Assembly: GCA_023268715.1 (NCBI GenBank)
Contig: JALRLV010000010.1
Coordinates: 1-49,804, forward strand
DNA from: Candidatus Thalassarchaeaceae archaeon
GTDB taxonomy: Archaea; Thermoplasmatota; Poseidoniia; Poseidoniales; Thalassarchaeaceae
DNA: 49,804 bases
Reading direction: 5' to 3'
The position numbers and the translations under genes were made by a program. The notes under the pieces were generated by a model. That model was not told the origin of the DNA. It saw only the letters and a program-made list of their open reading frames with translations, and ran no database searches. Position 1 is the first letter of the stretch; the number at the start of each line of letters is the position of its first letter. Shown here one piece after another: positions 27,037 to 38,208 of the stretch.

Positions 27037-27072
27037 CATTTCCGGTCGCCCGCCTCACCAAAGGTGAATGAA

Positions 27073-27387
27073 ATGGGTAACTCAGACGTACTCCGCACCA
27101 TAAGGGAAGCAGAAGAGGCCGCTGCTGCGGCCATATCAAAGGCCGAATCAGAGGCCACAAGTATTGTCCAAAAAGCTAGGTTAGAAGCCGCTGAGTCGCT
27201 TCAGACAGGACGCAATGATTCCGAAGCAGAAGCGCAGAAAATCGTCGCTGATGCTCGTGCAGCGGCGGAAAAGGAAGCCGGCACAGTATCAGCCGATGGA
27301 GATGCAACTATCGATTCAATTCACAACAGCGGAAAGAAGAACCGAGATAAGGCGGTCAACAAAATTCTGGATGCATTCCGAGCTTAA
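27073..27387 (+). CDS. atpH: A/V-type ATP synthase subunit H
   Basis: A short peripheral-stalk subunit of 104 residues that pairs with subunit E to hold the catalytic head against rotation. It is an almost continuous Ala/Glu/Lys-rich coiled coil (for example REAEEAAAAAISKAESEAT). The ATG at 27073 follows AGGTGAA; a GTG at 27064 is possible. It is the first of nine collinear ATP synthase genes, and subunit I follows after 26 nt. Confidence 0.85.
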   Translation: MGNSDVLRTIREAEEAAAAAISKAESEATSIVQKARLEAAESLQTGRNDSEAEAQKIVADARAAAEKEAGTVSADGDATIDSIHNSGKKNRDKAVNKILDAFRA

Positions 27388-27413
27388 AACTCAATCCAAG
27401 GAGGTCGCTAGAA

Positions 27414-29525
27414 ATGTCACAGGTTCAGACTAGGCAGATGGGTCGCTTGACCGCTGCTGGAACTCTGGACAAGCTTGACGATACACTTAGTCTCCTTGCC
27501 CGACTAAAGGCTCTACATTTCGTCGATTATGATGGCTCAGAGGATGACTTGACTCTTGGTACACCGAATGAGAAGGCCGAGGAGATTGCAAAGTTGCTGA
27601 ATAAAACCAGGGCAGCAGCGGCTCAAGTTGAGCCAGCAGGTCCCAGCAAAGCGGCTTCACTGGCCACGGTAAGAAAATCAATCGATGAAGGATTAGAGGA
27701 CAAAGTTGACTCGTTACTAGGCGATCTTAGTCGGATGGACGAAATTGAAAACAGCATTTCCTCACAAGCTGAAGAAGAATCGGTTTTGTCGTTGCTATCT
27801 CCGTTAGGAATCGATATCGAACTACTATCCGGCTACGAATCAATCACCTCATTTGTCGGCACTGTAGACGACATCAAAGCGGCACAAGCTGCTGCCAGAG
27901 ATGGAATGTTTGTCAGTGGAACATCAGGGAAAACCGATGTAGTCGCAGTTTTCGTGAAGAACGAAGACTCAGACTCTGTATCATCAGCACTCTCAGAAGC
28001 GGGATTCGCAGCCATTCAGTTACCTGAAGGCTCAGGTGACCCATCTTCCAGAATGAATGAACTGATGAATGAGAGATTAGCTCTTCAAACTGAGAGTGAA
28101 GGACTTTCCAATTCTGTATCAAAATGGGTTGATGACAACGGAGAGGACCTCATTTGTGGCTTAGAAGTTCTAGAAAGAGATCACGAATTGATTACTTCTC
28201 CAGTCAAAGTAGCCGTATCTGCCCATGCCTTCGTAATTGACGGCTGGGTTGAAATGGATAGGTCAGCCGACATCAAGGTCGCTCTTGGCAACGTTTGCAC
28301 TGTAGTAGATGTTGAGCCATTTGTAATCCAAGCAGGCGGGGCTCATCACGACCACGATGACGAACATCATGAACCAGAGATGCCACCAATTGCCTACCAA
28401 CCGAGGTCAACAACTAAGCCAATGGAATTGGTTACAGATATGGTAGGAAGGCCAGGATATGGGCGACTTGATCCTACAGTATTCATGTTCTTCACTTACC
28501 CAATTTTCTTCGGAGTAATGCTAGGAGATATGGCCTATGGACTTGCAACCGCAGGCCTTGGAACCTTCCTATACAGTAGGGCAGGTACAAATGATACACT
28601 AAAATTAGGTGGCAGATTCTTACAACTAATCGGTGTCTCTACCTTGATTTTCGGCTATTTATACGCTGAAATAGCAGGTTTTGAAATATTCCTTTATGAA
28701 AAATTGACTTATCCTGATGGAAGTTACATGAAAGATTCAGCGGGTCATTACATGTACAGCGACAATCTATCTCCAGTCGCCTTCCTCAGCGCACTTTACT
28801 TCCCATTCGACATCGAACATGGATACGGTTGGGAAGCATCCTATGGTTTCAGCCTATCACTTGCTTTCCCATTCCACAGGGTTGGAAGCCACATGACCGA
28901 TCTAATCATCATCAGCCTCTACATGGGTTGCTTCCATGTCCTTCTAGGATTAATCATGGGATTCCGTGACATTCTACTAGTAGGGAATGGGCACGGAGGT
29001 GTTGGATTAGTCGCGGCATTCTTCGAAAAAGGAGTTTGGATGATTTTGTTGGCTGGTGGATTCATGTTTGCTCACGGATTCCTCGGTAGCTACCATGAAT
29101 TATTGATGCCAGGAGTTGGCCTTATCGCATTCTCAACAATTTGCCTAATCTGGACTCTATACAGATACCATGGCCTAGATTTGTTCGTCGCAGTCCTAAT
29201 GGGTCCAGTAGAAGCAATCGGACTAATGCCTACAGTCATCTCCTATGTTCGACTTTTCGCAGTAGGAATAGTCGGAGTTAAGATTGCTGAAACCGGCAAT
29301 CACATGTTCTTTGATAAAATCTCAATGGACGAGCCATTGATGGCAGTTTTGCTAATCATTGGTTGGCTCCTAGTCCAAGCATTCGCTTGGTTGCTAGGAG
29401 TATTCAGTCCAAACATCCACGCAGCACGTCTGCACATGGTAGAGTGGATGAAGCAATATTACGATTCCAGCGGACAACCGTTTTCGCCATTCGGCGGAAC
29501 CTCGCAATATGTGGAGGGTGAGTAA
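27414..29525 (+). CDS. atpI: A/V-type ATP synthase subunit I (a subunit)
   Basis: Membrane stator subunit that forms the ion half-channels. The soluble N-terminal half (residues ~1-330) is followed by a membrane half with about seven to eight helices beginning PTVFMFFTYPIFFGVMLGDM. The functional Arg lies in the region VISYVRLFAVGIVGVKIAE. A His/Asp/Glu-rich stretch (AHHDHDDEHHEPE, around residues 308-322) links the two halves. A long loop near residues 425-490 is hydrophilic. AAGGAGGT upstream is the strongest ribosome binding site in the operon. 703 residues, normal for the family. Confidence 0.93.
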   Translation: MSQVQTRQMGRLTAAGTLDKLDDTLSLLARLKALHFVDYDGSEDDLTLGTPNEKAEEIAKLLNKTRAAAAQVEPAGPSKAASLATVRKSIDEGLEDKVDSLLGDLSRMDEIENSISSQAEEESVLSLLSPLGIDIELLSGYESITSFVGTVDDIKAAQAAARDGMFVSGTSGKTDVVAVFVKNEDSDSVSSALSEAGFAAIQLPEGSGDPSSRMNELMNERLALQTESEGLSNSVSKWVDDNGEDLICGLEVLERDHELITSPVKVAVSAHAFVIDGWVEMDRSADIKVALGNVCTVVDVEPFVIQAGGAHHDHDDEHHEPEMPPIAYQPRSTTKPMELVTDMVGRPGYGRLDPTVFMFFTYPIFFGVMLGDMAYGLATAGLGTFLYSRAGTNDTLKLGGRFLQLIGVSTLIFGYLYAEIAGFEIFLYEKLTYPDGSYMKDSAGHYMYSDNLSPVAFLSALYFPFDIEHGYGWEASYGFSLSLAFPFHRVGSHMTDLIIISLYMGCFHVLLGLIMGFRDILLVGNGHGGVGLVAAFFEKGVWMILLAGGFMFAHGFLGSYHELLMPGVGLIAFSTICLIWTLYRYHGLDLFVAVLMGPVEAIGLMPTVISYVRLFAVGIVGVKIAETGNHMFFDKISMDEPLMAVLLIIGWLLVQAFAWLLGVFSPNIHAARLHMVEWMKQYYDSSGQPFSPFGGTSQYVEGE

Positions 29526-29565
29526 TCAACCGACTGTCTGCTTCGGAAAAAATGGAGGAAGAAAA

Positions 29566-29889
29566 ATGAAGAAAACCGCAATAAAAGGAATGAGTCTATT
29601 GTTCGTCTTGTTTGTCGTCGCTGCTTTTGCAACCGGCGTACAGGCACAGGATGCAGCAGACAATGAGAACACCACAGCAGGTTACGCCGCTCTCGGAGCT
29701 GGTGTAGCACTAGGTCTGGCAGCTATTGGTACTGGTATGAGCCAGGGTCCAATCGGTGCTGCAGCTGTAGGAATGATTGCAGAGGACAGGTCACGACTTG
29801 GTCACGCAATTTTGTTCACTGCTCTACCTGAGACAATTGTTCTGTTCGGTTTCCTTGCAATGTTCGTTATGCCAGGCTTAGCAGCCTGA
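29566..29889 (+). CDS. atpK: A/V-type ATP synthase subunit K (c-ring subunit) with signal peptide
   Basis: Rotor-ring proteolipid. The 107-residue precursor has an N-terminal signal peptide (MKKTAIKGMSLLFVLFVVAA, cleavage likely near VQA-QD, residue 27) and an acidic linker. One helical hairpin follows: helix 1 with TGMSQGPIG and helix 2 with ALPETIVLFGF. Glu89 is the ion-binding carboxylate. Gln60 and Thr90 occupy places that bind Na+ in sodium-type rings, while the usual Tyr is Phe94. The ATG at 29566 follows GGAGGAAG; the frame open upstream overlaps atpI and is not used. Confidence 0.92.
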   Translation: MKKTAIKGMSLLFVLFVVAAFATGVQAQDAADNENTTAGYAALGAGVALGLAAIGTGMSQGPIGAAAVGMIAEDRSRLGHAILFTALPETIVLFGFLAMFVMPGLAA

Positions 29890-29901
29890 TTGCGAAAGCA
29901 A
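29890..29901 (+). other. small GNRA-loop hairpin after atpK
   Basis: TTGC-GAAA-GCAA directly follows the atpK stop codon. The 50-nt gap to atpE is the widest in the operon. It could mark an RNA processing or attenuation point that lets the ring subunit be made in excess, but the stem is only 4 bp. Confidence 0.25.
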
Positions 29902-29939
29902 AGAAATTGAATTTTGAATGAAATTAACGAGTTGATAGT

Positions 29940-30497
29940 ATGACTCTTGAAGCGCTAGCAGAACAGATTGCAGCCGCGGCTAAAGCCAAAGGCGAAGCAA
30001 TCACAGAGGCCGCGCGAGAGCAAGCCAAAGAAATCGCATCAGAATCAGCCGCAACCAATGCGGCTGCTCGCGACGAGGTTGTTGCTCGAGCAAAGCGAGA
30101 AAGCGACCAACTTTCCGTAGAAGTTGTAGCATCAGCGCGCCAAGCAAATCAGAAGCGAGAGCTAATTGCACGCCGTGAAGTCCTAGAAGCGACATGGCAA
30201 GAAGTGCAAGAAAAAGTCGGTTCAGCCGATTTAGCTGGTCGTAATGATATATTGAAATCCCTTCTAAATGAGGCTAAATCTGTAGGTGGAGATATGATTC
30301 TGCACCCGGTAAATACCGACAGAAAGGCCCTTACTGGAAAGGGATTCGATCTTGGCGATGATGTTGACGGCTTAGGTGGCTTCATTCTCGAATCTACAGA
30401 TGGTTCAATACTATTGGACTACAGATTCGATGGACGATTACAAGAGGTTTGGGAAGCAAACCTCGGAGCAGTAAACGAACTAATGTTTGGAAATTGA
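29940..30497 (+). CDS. atpE: A/V-type ATP synthase subunit E
   Basis: Peripheral-stalk subunit, 185 residues. The N-terminal ~100 residues are an Ala/Glu/Lys/Arg coiled coil that pairs with subunit H. The C-terminal globular part ends GGFILESTDGSILLDYRFDG and then RLQEVWE, the family signature that binds the catalytic head. It starts 50 nt after atpK and is followed 12 nt later by atpC. Confidence 0.92.
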   Translation: MTLEALAEQIAAAAKAKGEAITEAAREQAKEIASESAATNAAARDEVVARAKRESDQLSVEVVASARQANQKRELIARREVLEATWQEVQEKVGSADLAGRNDILKSLLNEAKSVGGDMILHPVNTDRKALTGKGFDLGDDVDGLGGFILESTDGSILLDYRFDGRLQEVWEANLGAVNELMFGN

Positions 30498-30509
30498 ATA
30501 GGTGATTAG

Positions 30510-31562
30510 ATGGCAAGATTAGCGACTGGAAGTTCCAATATTTCCAATGCCGGAGCGAGAGCAAAGACTCGCAAGGCGTCGCTAATTGATGGCACAAGAA
30601 TCCGCCAACTCCTGCAACAGGGTACAGATTCTATCGGAGCCAGTATCGGAGAATTCGGATACAGGCAAGAAATGGATCTCTATTCAGCAAGGATGTCTGG
30701 CTCAGATGCTATTGAAGCCGCCTTAACTCATAACTTGGATAATGACCTAAATTCCGTACTCGGTTTCTGCCAAGGAAACCTAAGAGATCTTGTCGCCATT
30801 TATGTCGAGAGATTCCAATACGAGAAGGTCAAAACAGTTCTGAGGTCAGTATCAAAGGGCGCATCAGATGAGATGATTGCCGATCAGATATTGCCTGAAG
30901 AAAATCCAAGCAATGCCCATTGGTTGCATATCGTTCGTACAACGGAAACCGTTCAAGAAGCCATAGACGCAATGCAAGGCTCTCCATGGGGGAAATGCCT
31001 AGCAAAATTAGATGCAGATACATCTCTCACAGAGATGGAGGATGCTTTGGATAGACAGTACTTTACTGATTCACTCGCAGCAGCTCGAGGCAGAGAAGGA
31101 AGCCCTCAACTAATCCGATATTTGCAGACAGAAATAGATCACAGGAACATCGTGAACCAGTTTAGAGCACAGAGACAAAACCTGTCTACTGAAACTCGTG
31201 AGAAAATCAACATCCCCGGTGGAAAAATCTCCGATGCTGTAATCAGAACTGCTTCACAGGCTGATACACAGGAGGCATTGTTGGAAGCCCTCCGTCGTTC
31301 AAATGCCTTCGATGATTCCGGCTTCGAAGAAGCCATGCAGGAATCAGCCCAACGTGGTACATTTGACCCACTGGTCAATTTACTCAGGCTAAAGAGATTG
31401 AAAATGCTAAGGAGATTTTCATACCTCAATCCTGTATCTGCCTTCCCTGTGATTTACTACATTCAAGCAAAGGTTCTGGAAGTCCAGAATCTACGCCTAC
31501 TTGTGCGCGGTAAGGCGGCAGGCCTCTCAGATGAGGTCATTGAAGCGCACTTATACATCTGA
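30510..31562 (+). CDS. atpC: A/V-type ATP synthase subunit C
   Basis: Central-stalk socket subunit that couples the rotor shaft to the membrane ring. The 350-residue protein is all-helical with the family patterns YRQEMDLYSARMSGSDAIEA, NLRDLVAIYVERFQYE and a C-terminal PVIYYIQAKVLEVQNLRLLV. Length and position between E and F are standard. The stop is 9 nt before atpF. Confidence 0.92.
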   Translation: MARLATGSSNISNAGARAKTRKASLIDGTRIRQLLQQGTDSIGASIGEFGYRQEMDLYSARMSGSDAIEAALTHNLDNDLNSVLGFCQGNLRDLVAIYVERFQYEKVKTVLRSVSKGASDEMIADQILPEENPSNAHWLHIVRTTETVQEAIDAMQGSPWGKCLAKLDADTSLTEMEDALDRQYFTDSLAAARGREGSPQLIRYLQTEIDHRNIVNQFRAQRQNLSTETREKINIPGGKISDAVIRTASQADTQEALLEALRRSNAFDDSGFEEAMQESAQRGTFDPLVNLLRLKRLKMLRRFSYLNPVSAFPVIYYIQAKVLEVQNLRLLVRGKAAGLSDEVIEAHLYI

Positions 31563-31571
31563 GGTGAAAAT

Positions 31572-31871
31572 ATGGAAATCGCAGTAGTCGGAACACCAGA
31601 ATTCACCCTCGGATTCCAACTCGCCGGCGTAACTCGCCTGCATAATCCAGCAGACCTAGAGGATACAGCAACTGTGCTTCGAAGTTTGATGGATACACCA
31701 GAGGTCGGTATTGTCGTGATTGACAGTTCCGACCTCACCCAAATGCCCGAGAAGTTGCGGATGCAACTCTCGGAGAGCATTACACCCACAGTACTGGGTA
31801 TAGGGACTGAGGAGGACAACACCCTTCGCGAGTCCATTAAGGCAGCTCTAGGAGTTGACCTATGGAAGTGA
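31572..31871 (+). CDS. atpF: A/V-type ATP synthase subunit F
   Basis: Small central-stalk subunit, 99 residues, of Rossmann-like fold. It has [20 protein letters not shown] at the start, [11 protein letters not shown] in the middle and a C-terminal helix [13 protein letters not shown], all standard. Spacing to atpA is 28 nt. Confidence 0.92.
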
Positions 31872-31899
31872 TTCCAGAAAAAGAAAAGGAAGTGAAAAA

Positions 31900-33642
31900 A
31901 TGAGTGAGGAAAATGGAGTGATTTATCGCATTTCAGGACCAGTAGTTACCGCTGTAGGTATTACCCCCAGAATGTATGAGGTAGTACGAGTAGGTGATGA
32001 AGGACTGATGGGTGAAGTCATTGAATTGCACGGAGACCAATCGGTTATCCAGGTCTACGAGGAAACATCGGGTATCAAACCGGGTGAACCTGTAGTCAGA
32101 ACGGGGCAGACTCTGTCTGTTCAGCTAGGTCCGGGTCTGTTAACACAGATTTACGACGGTATCCAGCGTCCGCTAGAGGACCTTGAGGAGACTATGGGTG
32201 TCTTCATCACACGTGGTGTAGATGCGGATGGTCTAGATCTCAAGAAGAAGTGGGAGTTCAACGCTACTGCTTCGAAAGGAGATGAGGTCAGCGCAGGTCA
32301 AGTAATCGGTACCGTACAAGAGACTGAGACTATCGAACATCGAGTGATGGTGCCACCTGGAAAGAGTGGTACAATCAAGAGTATCAAATCTGGTGAATAT
32401 GATGTCACTCAGACTGTTTGTACTCTTGATGATGGTACAGAAATTGCCATGATGCAAGAATGGCCGGTTCGAACACCGCGACCATTCGTCCGAAAGTATG
32501 CACCGGATGTGCCACTAATTACAGGTCAGAGGATCCTCGACTTCCTTTTCCCTCTGGCTAAGGGTGGTACCGCTGGTATCCCTGGACCATTCGGTAGCGG
32601 AAAGACAGTTACCCAACAGCAGTTGGCTAAGTGGTCTGACGCACAAATCGTTGTCTACATTGGATGCGGTGAGCGTGGAAACGAGATGACTGAGGTACTC
32701 ACTGAGTTCCCTCACCTGATCGACCCGCACACAGGAAAGCCTCTGATGAACAGAACTACGATGATTGCAAACACATCTAACATGCCTGTGGCAGCTCGTG
32801 AGGCTTCCGTGTATACAGGAATTACCATCGCGGAATACTTCCGAGATATGGGATACGATGTCGCTCTAATGGCTGACTCAACAAGCCGATGGGCAGAAGC
32901 AATGCGTGAGATTTCGTCTCGACTTGAAGAGATGCCTGGTGAGGAAGGTTACCCTGCTTACCTATCCAGCCGACTTGCTGAATTTTACGAGCGAGCTGGT
33001 CGTGTACAGACTCTCGCTGGCGACGATGGATCGGTATCGGTAATCGGAGCGGTATCACCACCTGGTGGTGACATATCCGAACCGGTCAGCCAAGGTACAC
33101 TACGTATTGTCAAGGTGTTCTGGGGATTAGATGCAGGTCTCGCTCGACAGCGACACTTCCCTGCGATTAACTGGCTGAGTTCATACTCGCTTTATCCACA
33201 GGCATTAGATCAATGGTATCGCGACAATATCGCTAGTGACTTCCCTGAGATTCGCACTGAAATCAGTGCTCTCCTGCAGGTTGAAGCAGAGTTACAGGAA
33301 ATCGTCCAACTGGTCGGTTCCGATGCTCTACCAATCGATCAGCAATTAACTCTGGAAGTCGCACGTATGATTCGTGAGTTCTTCCTTCAACAGAACGCTT
33401 TCCATGATGTCGATACTTACAGTAATCTCAATCTACAATACACAATGGCAAGAGCAATTCTTTCATTCCAAGATGAAGCAAAGAAGGCGATTGCCGGTGG
33501 TGCAGACCTAGAATCTGTGGTTAACGTACAGGCTAGAACGGACATCATGCGTGGAAGATTCGAAGAAGGATACGAAGAGCGTATCGAGAAACTAGTGAAA
33601 GAAATGGGCAAGCAGATCGCTGCTACCATGGAGGAGAACTGA
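31900..33642 (+). CDS. atpA: A/V-type ATP synthase catalytic subunit A
   Basis: Nucleotide-hydrolysing/synthesising subunit. The ATG at 31900 gives [20 protein letters not shown]. Motifs: the P-loop [23 protein letters not shown], the A-specific bulge region before the P-loop, and Walker B ending [13 protein letters not shown]. 580 residues. No intein interrupts the P-loop, unlike some archaeal and yeast A subunits. The frame open upstream overlaps atpF and has no ribosome site; GGAAGTGA precedes the chosen ATG. Confidence 0.97.
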
Positions 33643-33654
33643 GGAGGGATATGA

Positions 33655-35040
33655 ATGAGTGGAAAAGAGTACCGAACCATTACTGACGTCAAGGGACCTT
33701 TGGTGTTCCTAAACAAAACTGAACCGGTTGCATACGGTGAAATTGTCCAATTGAGACTAACCGATGGGACCATGAAGAATGGGCAAGTTCTAGATACCTC
33801 CGATGACCAAGTTATCGTACAGGTTTTCGAAGGAACATCCTCAGTCGACCGACAAACAGGTGTTAAGTTCCTAGGAGATGTATTCCGCCTACCAGTTAGC
33901 AAGGATCTCGTCGGCCGTATTCTAGACGGTGCCGGCCGCCCTCGTGATGGCGGCCCAGCAATCGTACCTGATGAAATGGCTGACATCATAGGAGCGGCAA
34001 TCAACCCATATTCCCGTGAAAGTCCAGAGTCTTTCATTCAGACAGGAATTTCTGCAATCGATGCATGTACATCTCTTGTTAGAGGACAAAAACTGCCAAT
34101 CTTCAGTGCTGCAGGTCTTCCTCACAACGATATCGCACTTCAGATTGCAAGGCAAGCAAAGCTTGTCGGAAGCGATGACGATTTCGTCGTAGTTTTCTGT
34201 GCTATGGGTATCACAGCGGAGGAATACAACTTCTTCGTTCACGATCTAGAAAGAACTGGTGCATTGGAGAACTCCGTTCTGTTCGTCAACCTAGCCGACG
34301 ACCCAGCGGTCGAGCGTCTGATTACACCACGTCTAGCACTAACTGCTGCTGAGTATCTTGCTTTCGAGCATGATTACCACGTATTGGTTATCTACACTGA
34401 TATGACAAACTACTGTGAGTCTCTACGACAAATCGGTGCAGCTCGTGAAGAAGTGCCTGGACGACGTGGTTACCCTGGATACATGTATACTGACTTGGCT
34501 ATGCTTTACGAGCGTGCAGGACTGGTTAAGGGCAAGAAGGGAAGTATCACACAATTCCCTATCCTAACCATGCCTGGTGACGATATTACTCACCCAATTC
34601 CTGACCTTTCGGGATATATTACAGAGGGCCAGATTGTTATTTCCCGTGAATTGCATCAGAAGGGTATCTACCCGCCAATTAACGTTCTACCATCGCTAAG
34701 TCGACTGATGAACGCTGGTATTGGTGATGGCAAGACTCGTGAAGATCACAAGTCGGTATCCGACCAATTGTACGCTGCTTATGCTCAAGGTAGAGAATTG
34801 CGTGGACTGGTTGCTATTGTCGGTGAAGATGCATTGAACGAGCGTGACCTTCAGTTACTGAAGTTCGCTGATATTTTCGAAAATGAGTTCTTGCGACAGA
34901 GCCGTGACGAAGATCGTTCAATCGGCGAAGGAACTCTTGACCTTGCGTGGAATCTACTAACCAACATCGATACTAAGTATCTCGTTCGATTAGACCAGAA
35001 GTGGATTGACAAGTATCACCCAACCGAAAAGAAGGAGTGA
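33655..35040 (+). CDS. atpB: A/V-type ATP synthase subunit B
   Basis: Non-catalytic nucleotide-binding partner of subunit A in the hexameric head. 461 residues. It begins [20 protein letters not shown], lacks a P-loop as expected, and contains [20 protein letters not shown] and [19 protein letters not shown]. It starts 12 nt after atpA, with GAGGAGGG as ribosome binding site. Confidence 0.97.
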
Positions 35041-35076
35041 AACTCTCGAACAACACGTCGATGAGGAGATGAAAAA

Positions 35077-35694
35077 ATGGCATTGGACATTAAACCAACC
35101 AGGTCCGAGCTAATCAACCTCAAGCGACGCATCAAGCAGACCTCAAGTGGATACAATCTACTGAAGATGAAGCGGGATGGTTTATTCCACGAGTTCCGAA
35201 CCTTGTTGTCTGAGATGATTAGTGCACGAGAGGAACTCGTCGGTACATACCGAGAAGCTGTAGAAGCGATTAGTTTAGCTAGCGCAATCGAAGGTGGATT
35301 AGTTGTGAAGAGTGCAGCAATTGCAAACTCGGCTTCACCGGAAGTTGAAGTTAGCCGTCGAAACATCATGGGAGTCGTAGTTCCTCAAGTCGAAGGGCAG
35401 AATCTGACCTCCACAATCGAAGAGCGTGGAACCGGTCTAATCGGTGGTTCTCCGTACATAGATGAGGCCGCAGACTCCTATTCTTCGTTAATTGCCAAGA
35501 TAGTCAAAGCCGCAGAAATGGAGGCTACTCTGAAGCGTCTCCTAGAAGAGATTGAAGCAACCAAGCGCCGTGTCAACGCGCTTGAGTTCAAGGTCATTCC
35601 AGAGATGCAAGAAGCTCAGACTTTCATCCAACTAAGATTGGAAGAAATGGAGCGCGAAGAGACCTTCCGCCTCAAGCGATTCAAGAACAAGTAA
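35077..35694 (+). CDS. atpD: A/V-type ATP synthase subunit D
   Basis: Rotor shaft subunit (gamma-like), 205 residues, two long coiled-coil helices. Typical segments are IKPTRSELINLKRRIKQTSS and GYNLLKMKRDGL at the start, and RRVNALEFKVIPEMQEAQTF near the end. It is last in the operon; a perfect hairpin follows about 40 nt after the stop. Confidence 0.95.
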   Translation: MALDIKPTRSELINLKRRIKQTSSGYNLLKMKRDGLFHEFRTLLSEMISAREELVGTYREAVEAISLASAIEGGLVVKSAAIANSASPEVEVSRRNIMGVVVPQVEGQNLTSTIEERGTGLIGGSPYIDEAADSYSSLIAKIVKAAEMEATLKRLLEEIEATKRRVNALEFKVIPEMQEAQTFIQLRLEEMEREETFRLKRFKNK

Positions 35695-35736: not shown

Positions 35737-35759
35737 CGCAACCACCGAAGGTGGTTGCG
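35737..35759 (+). promoter_or_regulatory. 10-bp perfect hairpin between atpD and the S2P-like gene
   Basis: CGCAACCACC and GGTGGTTGCG are exact reverse complements around a GAA loop. The structure ends 4 nt before the ATG at 35764. It could end ATP synthase transcripts, block the start of the next gene, or act as an operator. There is no clear T-run after it. Confidence 0.55.
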
Positions 35760-35763
35760 TAGT

Positions 35764-38208
35764 ATGTCAGAAGCCGAGCCAATCATACTTGATCACTCGG
35801 CTTGGACTCAACAAGATTTGTTGGTCCACATCATCCATCGCTACTTCGATTTAGGCAATGAAGCAATGGCTGGGCAGGCTTGGGAAGTACGAGCTAAAAG
35901 TGGAAGGAGTGACTCCGAGGCGCTAATCCAACTCAACAAGGAACTTGAGCCATTAGGCTACCTTTCGATGCTAGACAGGGGTAATCCTCCAATTCTGAGT
36001 ATCGCTCATTATCCAGAAGGTCAGCAAGTCATTGCTAATTGGCAGTTATCTGTTGTTTGGCTGATGATGGCTGGCTTCCTTACCATGATTGGTAGTGCAT
36101 GGTTGATGCAGTTTGATTCAACCGCCACCGCCCTAGATTCTAACTTACTGCGAGAATCAATGTTTTACATGGCAATTCCAATGATATCCGTTTTGGGATT
36201 AGCCAGTGAAATTCGCAGGAGAATCGCCTTACATTATGGCGTCAAAATAGGCCATGTCGTGCCAATAGCATTCCCAATTTTGGCCGCTAGTTGGCCTTTT
36301 GGTTTGGCTGGTGTATTGAGTCAACATAGAGCCGATTTAATCCCAATTCCCAATCGAAGGGCACTTGCAATAATCGAATTAACAGTGCCTATTTTCCTAT
36401 TCATTGGTGGAAGTTTACTGACCATTATCGGCTTACATCTGACTCCACTTGAACCTCCTGAACTATCCTCATCTCCAATTGGTTTTGGAAATAATATTCT
36501 AATCTCAATCTTAACTTTAGATTGGATGGGTGAAGATTTGCTAATTAAACTACAGTGGATTCATCTCACTGGTCTTGCTGGAATAGGTTTGACTCTAATC
36601 GGTTGGACTCTGTTATTGCCGATTCCTGGATTCCCTGGTGACCGACTATTACATGCTCTAATCGGCCCAGCCGAGATGTCCGATTCAAATCGCCAAACAG
36701 GGATATTCATCCTAATGCTCGGTGCAATGGTGATGATTTTTGCAAACACCGAATATATGCCTTGGTTGTTGATTGCGGCTTTGGCGGCCATGCGTCGATT
36801 CAGTCCAGAAAATTCGCCGCCGCCTTTAGTCGTTGACGAATCAATTGTCCCTTCAAACAAGGAACGCAGTAGGTTCGCCACACTACTCGTATTCGTTCTC
36901 ATTATGGGATTCCCTGGATTGAACCCCTCCTTCACAATAGACCAATGGGATGAGGGCTTGGACACCTCAGGCTGGGTTGAAGAAATCGAACTTAATATTT
37001 CAGAATCCTACAATCTAACTCTAGAGTTAACTCCAGAAGGAATCAATCCGGTTTCCGGATGGATACAGATTAGACTGGAGGGGGAATACTCGCAATTATG
37101 GGATATCACCTCATCTCAGTTTAACGAAAATAAAATCTACAGATTTGATGGAGTAACCCAGAACTCTCCTGATGAATTACGTTTGACAATAATCCCGATG
37201 GATATTGCTCAAGACGATGCAACACTTCTTCCTGACGCTTCGATGTGGTTGAGAATTCTAGTTGATGTAGACGACCATACTGAAGAGCACCTAACTGTTC
37301 TTCGCCACCCTCAAATAACTTCTCCAATAGATCCTCTCTGGTTGCTGATTGAGGATACCGATACCCCAAGAATATGTATGAGTATTCAGAAGGTAGATGA
37401 TAGGCCTGCGTCTTTAATTCTGACAAATCCATTTTGGGAGTTTGAGAACGACACTAACCTCACTAAAGTAGGCCTTCACGATGTTTGTCTACGAGGTTAC
37501 GAAGGCGCATTACAATCATCACAATTCAAAGACGAGTTTAGGCGAGTCATGGGCCCGGCCTTGGCATTAGATTTCGAAGATGGTGAGAGGATAACTTGGT
37601 GGTTGCCAGTGAATGGAACAGAAGCCAAATTACAGATTTCTGACGAAGGATGGCAAATACCCTCTCTGTACTCAGCCAACACAGATTATACCATATCTTT
37701 CGGCCCTCAAGGGAGTGCATTTTGCCCTTCAACAGAAATAATGCCAGAGATGGAAATCGGAGCTAATTGGAATTGGACCTTTACCGACCGCTCTTCAATT
37801 AGAATTCCAGCCGGCCAATTGGGTTTTGGAACCCTATTCTTCGAATCTCATGGCTGGTTATCCTTCTGCAAGGAAGGAGTTATGCTACGTTCGTATATGA
37901 TTGTTGAAGGAGATGATGTGATTTTAGACGGAGGAGATATAGGGATGCACTTGGCATTTTCTGAGTACATAATCTCTAATCGAATGAACAAGACAATCCC
38001 GATTGCCGTAAGTTGGACTGGGGATTCACCGGAAGCCGATGTATGGAATGTCTCGATTCAGGATGAAATTGCTCCGAACTCAGATTCCATGATGATTCTA
38101 GAGGCTGCAGGCACAACCGCTCTCTATCGTGCTGTTTGGGTAACTGTGGATGATGGTGAAATTACAGTTAACTTAGCCGCTCGTTGTCCGGTTGATGGGT
38201 GTGAGTAG
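35764..38208 (+). CDS. site-2-protease-like membrane protein lacking catalytic motifs, with large C-terminal domain
   Basis: An 814-residue membrane protein. The N-terminal soluble domain and membrane core follow archaeal site-2 proteases. SEIRRRIALHYGVKIGHVVP (residues ~146-165) stands where S2Ps have HExxH..AA..YGVK. PIPNRRALAIIELTVP (~194) matches their PNRRAL.DIG.AGP segment. LLPIPGFPGDRLLHALIGP (~283-301) stands where they have LLP...LDGG. All the zinc-binding residues (both His, the Glu, and the Asp of LDGG) are missing, so proteolysis is unlikely. A PPPLVVDES turn and a last helix also match S2P ends. The ~430 residues after it are beta-rich and probably external. The ATG at 35764 is used. 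panE starts right after the stop. Confidence 0.65.
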   Translation: MSEAEPIILDHSAWTQQDLLVHIIHRYFDLGNEAMAGQAWEVRAKSGRSDSEALIQLNKELEPLGYLSMLDRGNPPILSIAHYPEGQQVIANWQLSVVWLMMAGFLTMIGSAWLMQFDSTATALDSNLLRESMFYMAIPMISVLGLASEIRRRIALHYGVKIGHVVPIAFPILAASWPFGLAGVLSQHRADLIPIPNRRALAIIELTVPIFLFIGGSLLTIIGLHLTPLEPPELSSSPIGFGNNILISILTLDWMGEDLLIKLQWIHLTGLAGIGLTLIGWTLLLPIPGFPGDRLLHALIGPAEMSDSNRQTGIFILMLGAMVMIFANTEYMPWLLIAALAAMRRFSPENSPPPLVVDESIVPSNKERSRFATLLVFVLIMGFPGLNPSFTIDQWDEGLDTSGWVEEIELNISESYNLTLELTPEGINPVSGWIQIRLEGEYSQLWDITSSQFNENKIYRFDGVTQNSPDELRLTIIPMDIAQDDATLLPDASMWLRILVDVDDHTEEHLTVLRHPQITSPIDPLWLLIEDTDTPRICMSIQKVDDRPASLILTNPFWEFENDTNLTKVGLHDVCLRGYEGALQSSQFKDEFRRVMGPALALDFEDGERITWWLPVNGTEAKLQISDEGWQIPSLYSANTDYTISFGPQGSAFCPSTEIMPEMEIGANWNWTFTDRSSIRIPAGQLGFGTLFFESHGWLSFCKEGVMLRSYMIVEGDDVILDGGDIGMHLAFSEYIISNRMNKTIPIAVSWTGDSPEADVWNVSIQDEIAPNSDSMMILEAAGTTALYRAVWVTVDDGEITVNLAARCPVDGCE

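Follow-up and report, generated by a model that had tools for sequence, protein, structure and literature searches.

Marine Group II archaea carry, next to their A-type ATP synthase operon, a membrane protein that is almost certainly a site-2 protease (S2P) stripped of its catalytic residues. Here we describe the member of this family encoded in the window (the whole 49,804-nucleotide stretch of DNA analysed, from a Candidatus Thalassarchaeaceae archaeon), for which profile searches, structure prediction and the alignment of orthologues all favour the degenerate S2P proposed in an earlier note on this DNA. An S2P pseudoprotease is thereby found fixed across an order of abundant ocean archaea, with the active form preserved in the sister group, a natural before-and-after pair that bears on the use of an intramembrane protease fold once catalysis is gone. 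Together with two other lineages of the phylum in which the zinc histidines were lost independently, the order-wide dead family would make S2P pseudoproteases a recurrent archaeal outcome. We think it probable that the protein is a dead, EGY-derived S2P acting as a non-proteolytic scaffold or chaperone for membrane proteins.

Plant EGY3 has been called the only pseudoenzyme of the S2P family, one restricted to plants (PMC9355673). It lacks HExxH and helps to stabilize CSD2, and egy3 mutants under high light accumulate two ATP synthase subunits (PMC9355673, PMC12389704). A further precedent is provided by the iRhoms, dead relatives of the rhomboid proteases that bind transmembrane (TM) clients (PMC3149277, PMC6451368). 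We found no archaeal S2P pseudoprotease in the open-access literature.

The gene (Table 1) belongs to a host genome of 1.55 Mb that is 86% complete and has Marine Group II / Thalassarchaeum genomes as its closest named kin; the genomes compared throughout are metagenome-assembled. Group f1, the family of the window protein, is MGIIb; f2 is MGIIa, of the same order, and f3 is MGIII, of the same class, these ranks of kinship being computed and the names MGIIa and MGIII presumed. An in-frame TTG at 35755 is a possible alternative start, over which the ATG is preferred because the alignment of family members begins there. The core segments quoted in the earlier note can all be read in this open reading frame, as ALHYGVKIG, PIPNRRAL, LLLPIPGFPGDR and PPPLVVDE.

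Table 1. Features of the pseudoprotease gene and its upstream region, in window coordinates.
Feature	Position	Strand	Basis
Complete A-type ATP synthase cluster (G/H, I, K, E, C, F, A, B, D), directly upstream	27064..35694	+	Pfam match per gene
Perfect 10-bp hairpin between atpD and the pseudo-S2P gene	35737..35759	+	RNA fold z -2.9
S2P-like pseudoprotease gene, 814 aa, ATG start	35764..38208	+	Open reading frame; order-wide homologues; purifying selection
Predicted N-terminal cytoplasmic domain, residues 1-90, alpha/beta	35764..36033	+	AlphaFold2 secondary structure; membrane side inferred
S2P-like membrane core, residues 91-385, seven predicted TM helices, beta sheet between TM2 and TM3	36034..36918	+	Model
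Former HExxH slot, A147-S148-E149-I150-R151	36202..36216	+	Aligned column counts
Retained (P)NRRAL segment, residues 197-201	36352..36366	+	Common to active relatives
Former LDGG slot, F290-P291-G292-D293-R294, zinc Asp to Pro	36631..36645	+	168-sequence alignment
Predicted extracytoplasmic beta-sandwich domain, residues 386-814	36919..38205	+	DSSP of model; sequons; Foldseek
Invariant Cys538	37375..37377	+	116/116 full-length members
Invariant Cys575	37486..37488	+	116/116 full-length members
Invariant Cys654	37723..37725	+	116/116 full-length members
Invariant Cys702	37867..37869	+	116/116 full-length members

The state of the active site was read from an alignment of 168 sequences, made up of 122 distinct family members, 2 of which lack the region, and 46 active relatives. 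Among the 120 members that could be scored, the first zinc His is never kept and is Ala in 105; the catalytic Glu is likewise never kept and is Ser in 108; the second His position holds Gln (65), Arg (50), Lys (3) or, in 2 members, His; and the LDG Asp is exchanged for Pro (116) or Ala (4). All four residues (His, Glu, His and Asp) are intact in 46/46 active relatives from outside the order in the same alignment. The window protein itself has exchanged His for Ala, Glu for Ser and His for Arg in the HExxH slot; with the LDG Asp also replaced, the statement in the earlier note that all zinc ligands are gone is borne out, as is its placement of FPGDR at the LDGG position (residues 290-294, Asp to Pro). 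It had also read SEIRR in place of HExxH: the loss of the zinc motif stands and the exact placement does not, as the aligned slot is A-S-E-I-R, one or two residues off. The comparison of orthologues suggested there separates about 120 distinct in-order members without HExxH and LDG from the relatives, in the sister family and elsewhere in Thermoplasmatota, that carry both. The HExxH in TM2 and the LDG Asp that mark active peptidases in MEROPS M50 are thus missing from the family members, and a search of the order with the active profile found no active EGY-type copy, the M50-type matches there being the dead family.

Replacement motifs, A-S-x-x-[RQ] and P-x-F-P-G-[GD]-R, are conserved in the family. 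Residues 151 and 293 are occupied by Arg or Lys with Asp in 49 members and by Gln with Gly in 62; this pairing follows the MGIIb/MGIIa split and therefore amounts to no more than one or two changes along the tree. A salt bridge between Arg151 and Asp293 that would take the place of the zinc is an idea raised by the sequences. The protein might still be an enzyme, using a non-zinc chemistry built on Ser148, the residue kept in the 108 of 120 members, and on Arg/Gln151, a position at which Arg, Gln or Lys is found in 118/120. Ser148 nevertheless gives way to Thr, Asn or His in some members and the core holds no invariant His/Asp/Glu constellation, and we regard continued enzymatic activity as very improbable.

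Taken alone, the window protein has no Pfam match at E ≤ 10 and likewise none in NCBIfam. The profile search with Pfam M50 proposed in the earlier note misses it but matches 24/83 family cores (best E 6.5e-7), and detects the sister-group proteins with E of about 1e-21. With the HMM of the family, matches to active EGY-type S2Ps extend through the phylum (best 112 bits, E 5e-34). Weak matches in the sister family proved to be EGY-type S2Ps, about 520-550 aa long, that are intact and carry HEMGH, NRRAL and LDGG. We take these relatives to be of the EGY type from their motifs and from general knowledge of that type. Aligned by hhalign with the active sister-group S2Ps, the family profile gives 98.3% probability (E 1.7e-14) over residues 50-383, at an identity to active relatives of about 20-25%, and a sequence search of the PDB with the core profile gave a weak match to RseP at the LDG segment (E 0.58) as its sole match. 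In the tree, the dead family forms one side of a 100/100-supported branch with a long stem, about 3 changes per site separating it from the active relatives, which is consistent with a single origin.

The core was modelled separately because, with the full-length model (pLDDT 87), the beta ectodomain dominates a Foldseek search; even so, an S2P-like SpoIVFB protein was matched in the viral library with prob 1.00. Built from family members alone, without active S2Ps, the core model (pLDDT 91.5, pTM 0.91) has the two chains of MjS2P as its top two PDB matches, 3b4r_A (prob 1.00) and 3b4r_B (0.99), the outcome that the earlier note had anticipated; the remaining, non-S2P PDB matches listed have prob ≤0.2. 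TM-scores to MjS2P are modest, at 0.33-0.49 (0.33/0.43 for the 3b4r_A match). MjS2P thus resembles the predicted core and differs in being an active zinc protease without a large ectodomain. The N-terminal residues 1-90 are placed like the N-domain of active EGY-type relatives, with which the hhalign alignment begins at residue 50. By predicted fold and by profile, the family belongs to the S2P superfamily by descent, as a non-peptidase homologue. A chance likeness of segments in a protein unrelated to S2Ps would fit the missing Pfam match of the window protein on its own; it is refuted by the profile, structure and tree evidence and retains next to no probability.

The core profile (from alignment A3, at a cut-off of E ≤ 1e-8) matches 142/145 genomes of the order that are ≥80% complete, and the window protein itself matches 140/148 genomes of its family, f1. 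The lowest score within the order among the matches listed is 120 bits, from contig-end or split pieces, and the best match outside it in the sampled phylum is 71 bits; judged by these scores, the pseudo-S2P family is sharply confined to Marine Group II within the sampled phylum. One MGIIa bin (G219, C7:6-1979) holds a second, MGIIb-like copy at a contig end, with 39% identity to the window protein (E 1.4e-151), which is likely to be bin contamination. In four genomes the match to the gene is split into two or more pieces (G118 C5, G120 C9, G034 C15 and G040 C12), for which divergence, errors in sequencing or assembly and a truly broken gene are all possible causes.

Omega of the whole gene is about 0.07-0.14. 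Computed against the three closest comparisons, the core stands at about 0.05, the N-domain at 0.04-0.07 and the ectodomain at 0.10-0.19. The gene is functional rather than decaying, and its core is under strong purifying selection. As the losses at the active site are clade-wide and the gene is under such selection, the degenerate sites are not a matter of chance.

The roughly 430 residues that follow the last TM helix, described in the earlier note as beta-rich with scattered cysteines, are modelled as beta sandwiches and contain the four invariant cysteines. Foldseek matches this ectodomain to Ig-like folds and S-layer proteins, and N-glycosylation sequons (N-x-S/T) number 10.2 per protein compared with 4.3 after shuffling. 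We infer from the precedent of S2P topology and from the sequons that residues 386-814 lie outside the cell membrane; structure prediction, conservation and sequon statistics indicate that the domain is probably glycosylated and disulfide-bonded. These same properties (a large ectodomain with sequon enrichment, invariant Cys and matches to S-layer and Ig-like proteins) would suit a surface glycoprotein in which the dead core merely anchors the protein in the membrane and the function lies with the Ig-like ectodomain, in adhesion, the envelope or substrate binding. A plain anchor would not need the new fixed motifs at the old active site, however, and selection holds the core more tightly than the ectodomain (omega about 0.05 against 0.08-0.19), such that we consider this explanation unlikely.

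Two further M50 types with intact HExxH remain in Marine Group II genomes, a PDZ type and a short HExxHK type. The host genome (G000) carries intact M50 proteins of a 503-aa type at C22:62604-63560 (L001) and of an HEVAHK type of about 290 aa at C5:18003-18398 (L156). The pseudoprotease could regulate these two proteases through heterodimers or substrate trapping, in keeping with the presence of both in the order and with a review in which dead relatives sometimes regulate active ones (PMC11266112). The genes, however, share neither location nor fusion, and the would-be partners are distant subfamilies that the EGY-type profile does not match; we hold such regulation to be improbable.

Zinc-site loss is also seen elsewhere in the phylum. 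In two genomes of group f27 (L289, L290), a protein of about 600 aa keeps LDGG but reads RELTK or REFGR where HExxH would stand; each is a second match beside a shorter EGY-type frame in its genome and, as in the Marine Group II family, extends far beyond the last TM helix. The f27 frame used as an active comparison (L238) has an intact HETAH. One f32 genome (L292) has WELGR in the HExxH slot and FDGG, the LDG Asp being kept. As the f27 and f32 dead proteins are placed among active ones in the tree, apart from the Marine Group II family, the zinc histidines of EGY-type S2Ps in this phylum seem to have disappeared on at least three independent occasions. The three losses share Arg or Lys at the second His position (Gln in MGIIa).

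Comparison with known systems delimits what is particular to the Marine Group II protein. It has in common with the EGY-type S2Ps of Thermoplasmatota (L070-L076, L081-L135) the N-terminal domain, the S2P core and the NRRAL segment, and with the long ones among them a beta-rich domain after the last TM helix; they differ in keeping HExxH and LDGG (46/46) and in lying away from the ATP synthase operon where examined, and the C-terminal domain of those in the sister group is much shorter, at about 130 aa. Plant EGY3, compared here by description only, is likewise an EGY-type S2P relative without HExxH that is kept as a pseudoprotease, but it is a chloroplast protein beside active EGY1 and EGY2 paralogues, whereas the Marine Group II protein is archaeal, is the only EGY-type copy of its order and has an ectodomain of about 430 aa. 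Trees of the Thermoplasmatota proteins make an origin independent of EGY3 likely. The iRhoms are similarly dead intramembrane proteases with an added extracytoplasmic domain, and they act by binding TM clients, as is proposed here; their rhomboid fold is unrelated and they are eukaryotic, limiting the analogy to mode of action.

The order atpB-atpD-pseudo-S2P-panE is found in 24/24 loci from MGIIb and MGIIa genera. No S2P-like gene lies downstream of atpD in six outgroup genomes, within the stretch read, and no ATP synthase genes lie near the active S2P at 15 outgroup loci. On the loci compared, catalytic loss and the position after atpD are characters of the whole order. Because panE (24/24) and nadB (21/24) are conserved in the same neighbourhoods, the position is weak evidence for a role in ATP synthase biology. 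The build-up of ATP synthase subunits in egy3 mutants, set beside the atpD position here, is provisionally regarded as a coincidence.

Comparison with relatives supports the view that, in the ancestor of Marine Group II, an EGY-type S2P lost both zinc His together with the catalytic Glu and the LDG Asp, and that its gene came to adjoin the A-type ATP synthase operon. Structure prediction indicates that the S2P-like fold and the N-terminal cytoplasmic domain were retained. The retained groove might then hold TM segments of client proteins without cutting them, with the external domain recognizing a client or partner, and the protein could serve membrane proteins as a chaperone, adaptor or retention factor, in the manner of iRhoms and perhaps of EGY3 in chloroplasts. 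Non-catalytic client binding seems somewhat likelier than its opposite, and a part in regulating membrane-protein turnover, as suggested in the earlier note, is plausible. The fixed place of the gene would make ATP synthase assembly or quality control the first candidate. That ATP synthase is the main client is suggested by this position and is a tentative, rather doubtful proposal. The site loss and the relocation are common to all Marine Group II examined and to no examined outgroup, which is the ground for a still narrower reading, a dedicated, non-proteolytic S2P-fold chaperone of the A-type ATP synthase that would serve in its assembly or quality control and whose external domain would be a sensor. 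We consider this unlikely; if true, a membrane protease would have been turned into an assembly or quality-control factor.

Two observations concern the operon itself. The hairpin ahead of the pseudo-S2P gene has the arms and loop CGCAACCACC-GAA-GGTGGTTGCG, and its 3' arm contains AGGTG, which lies about 10 nt ahead of the ATG and is likely to be the ribosome-binding site. It is kept within the genus and absent from other genera; a dispersed repeat was rejected, the hairpin being unique in the genome, and translational control is possible. ATP synthase subunit K (29569-29889) begins with an extra N-terminal hydrophobic stretch ending in VQAQDA, followed by the usual two-helix ring subunit, and the extra stretch resembles, in sequence, a cleavable signal peptide.
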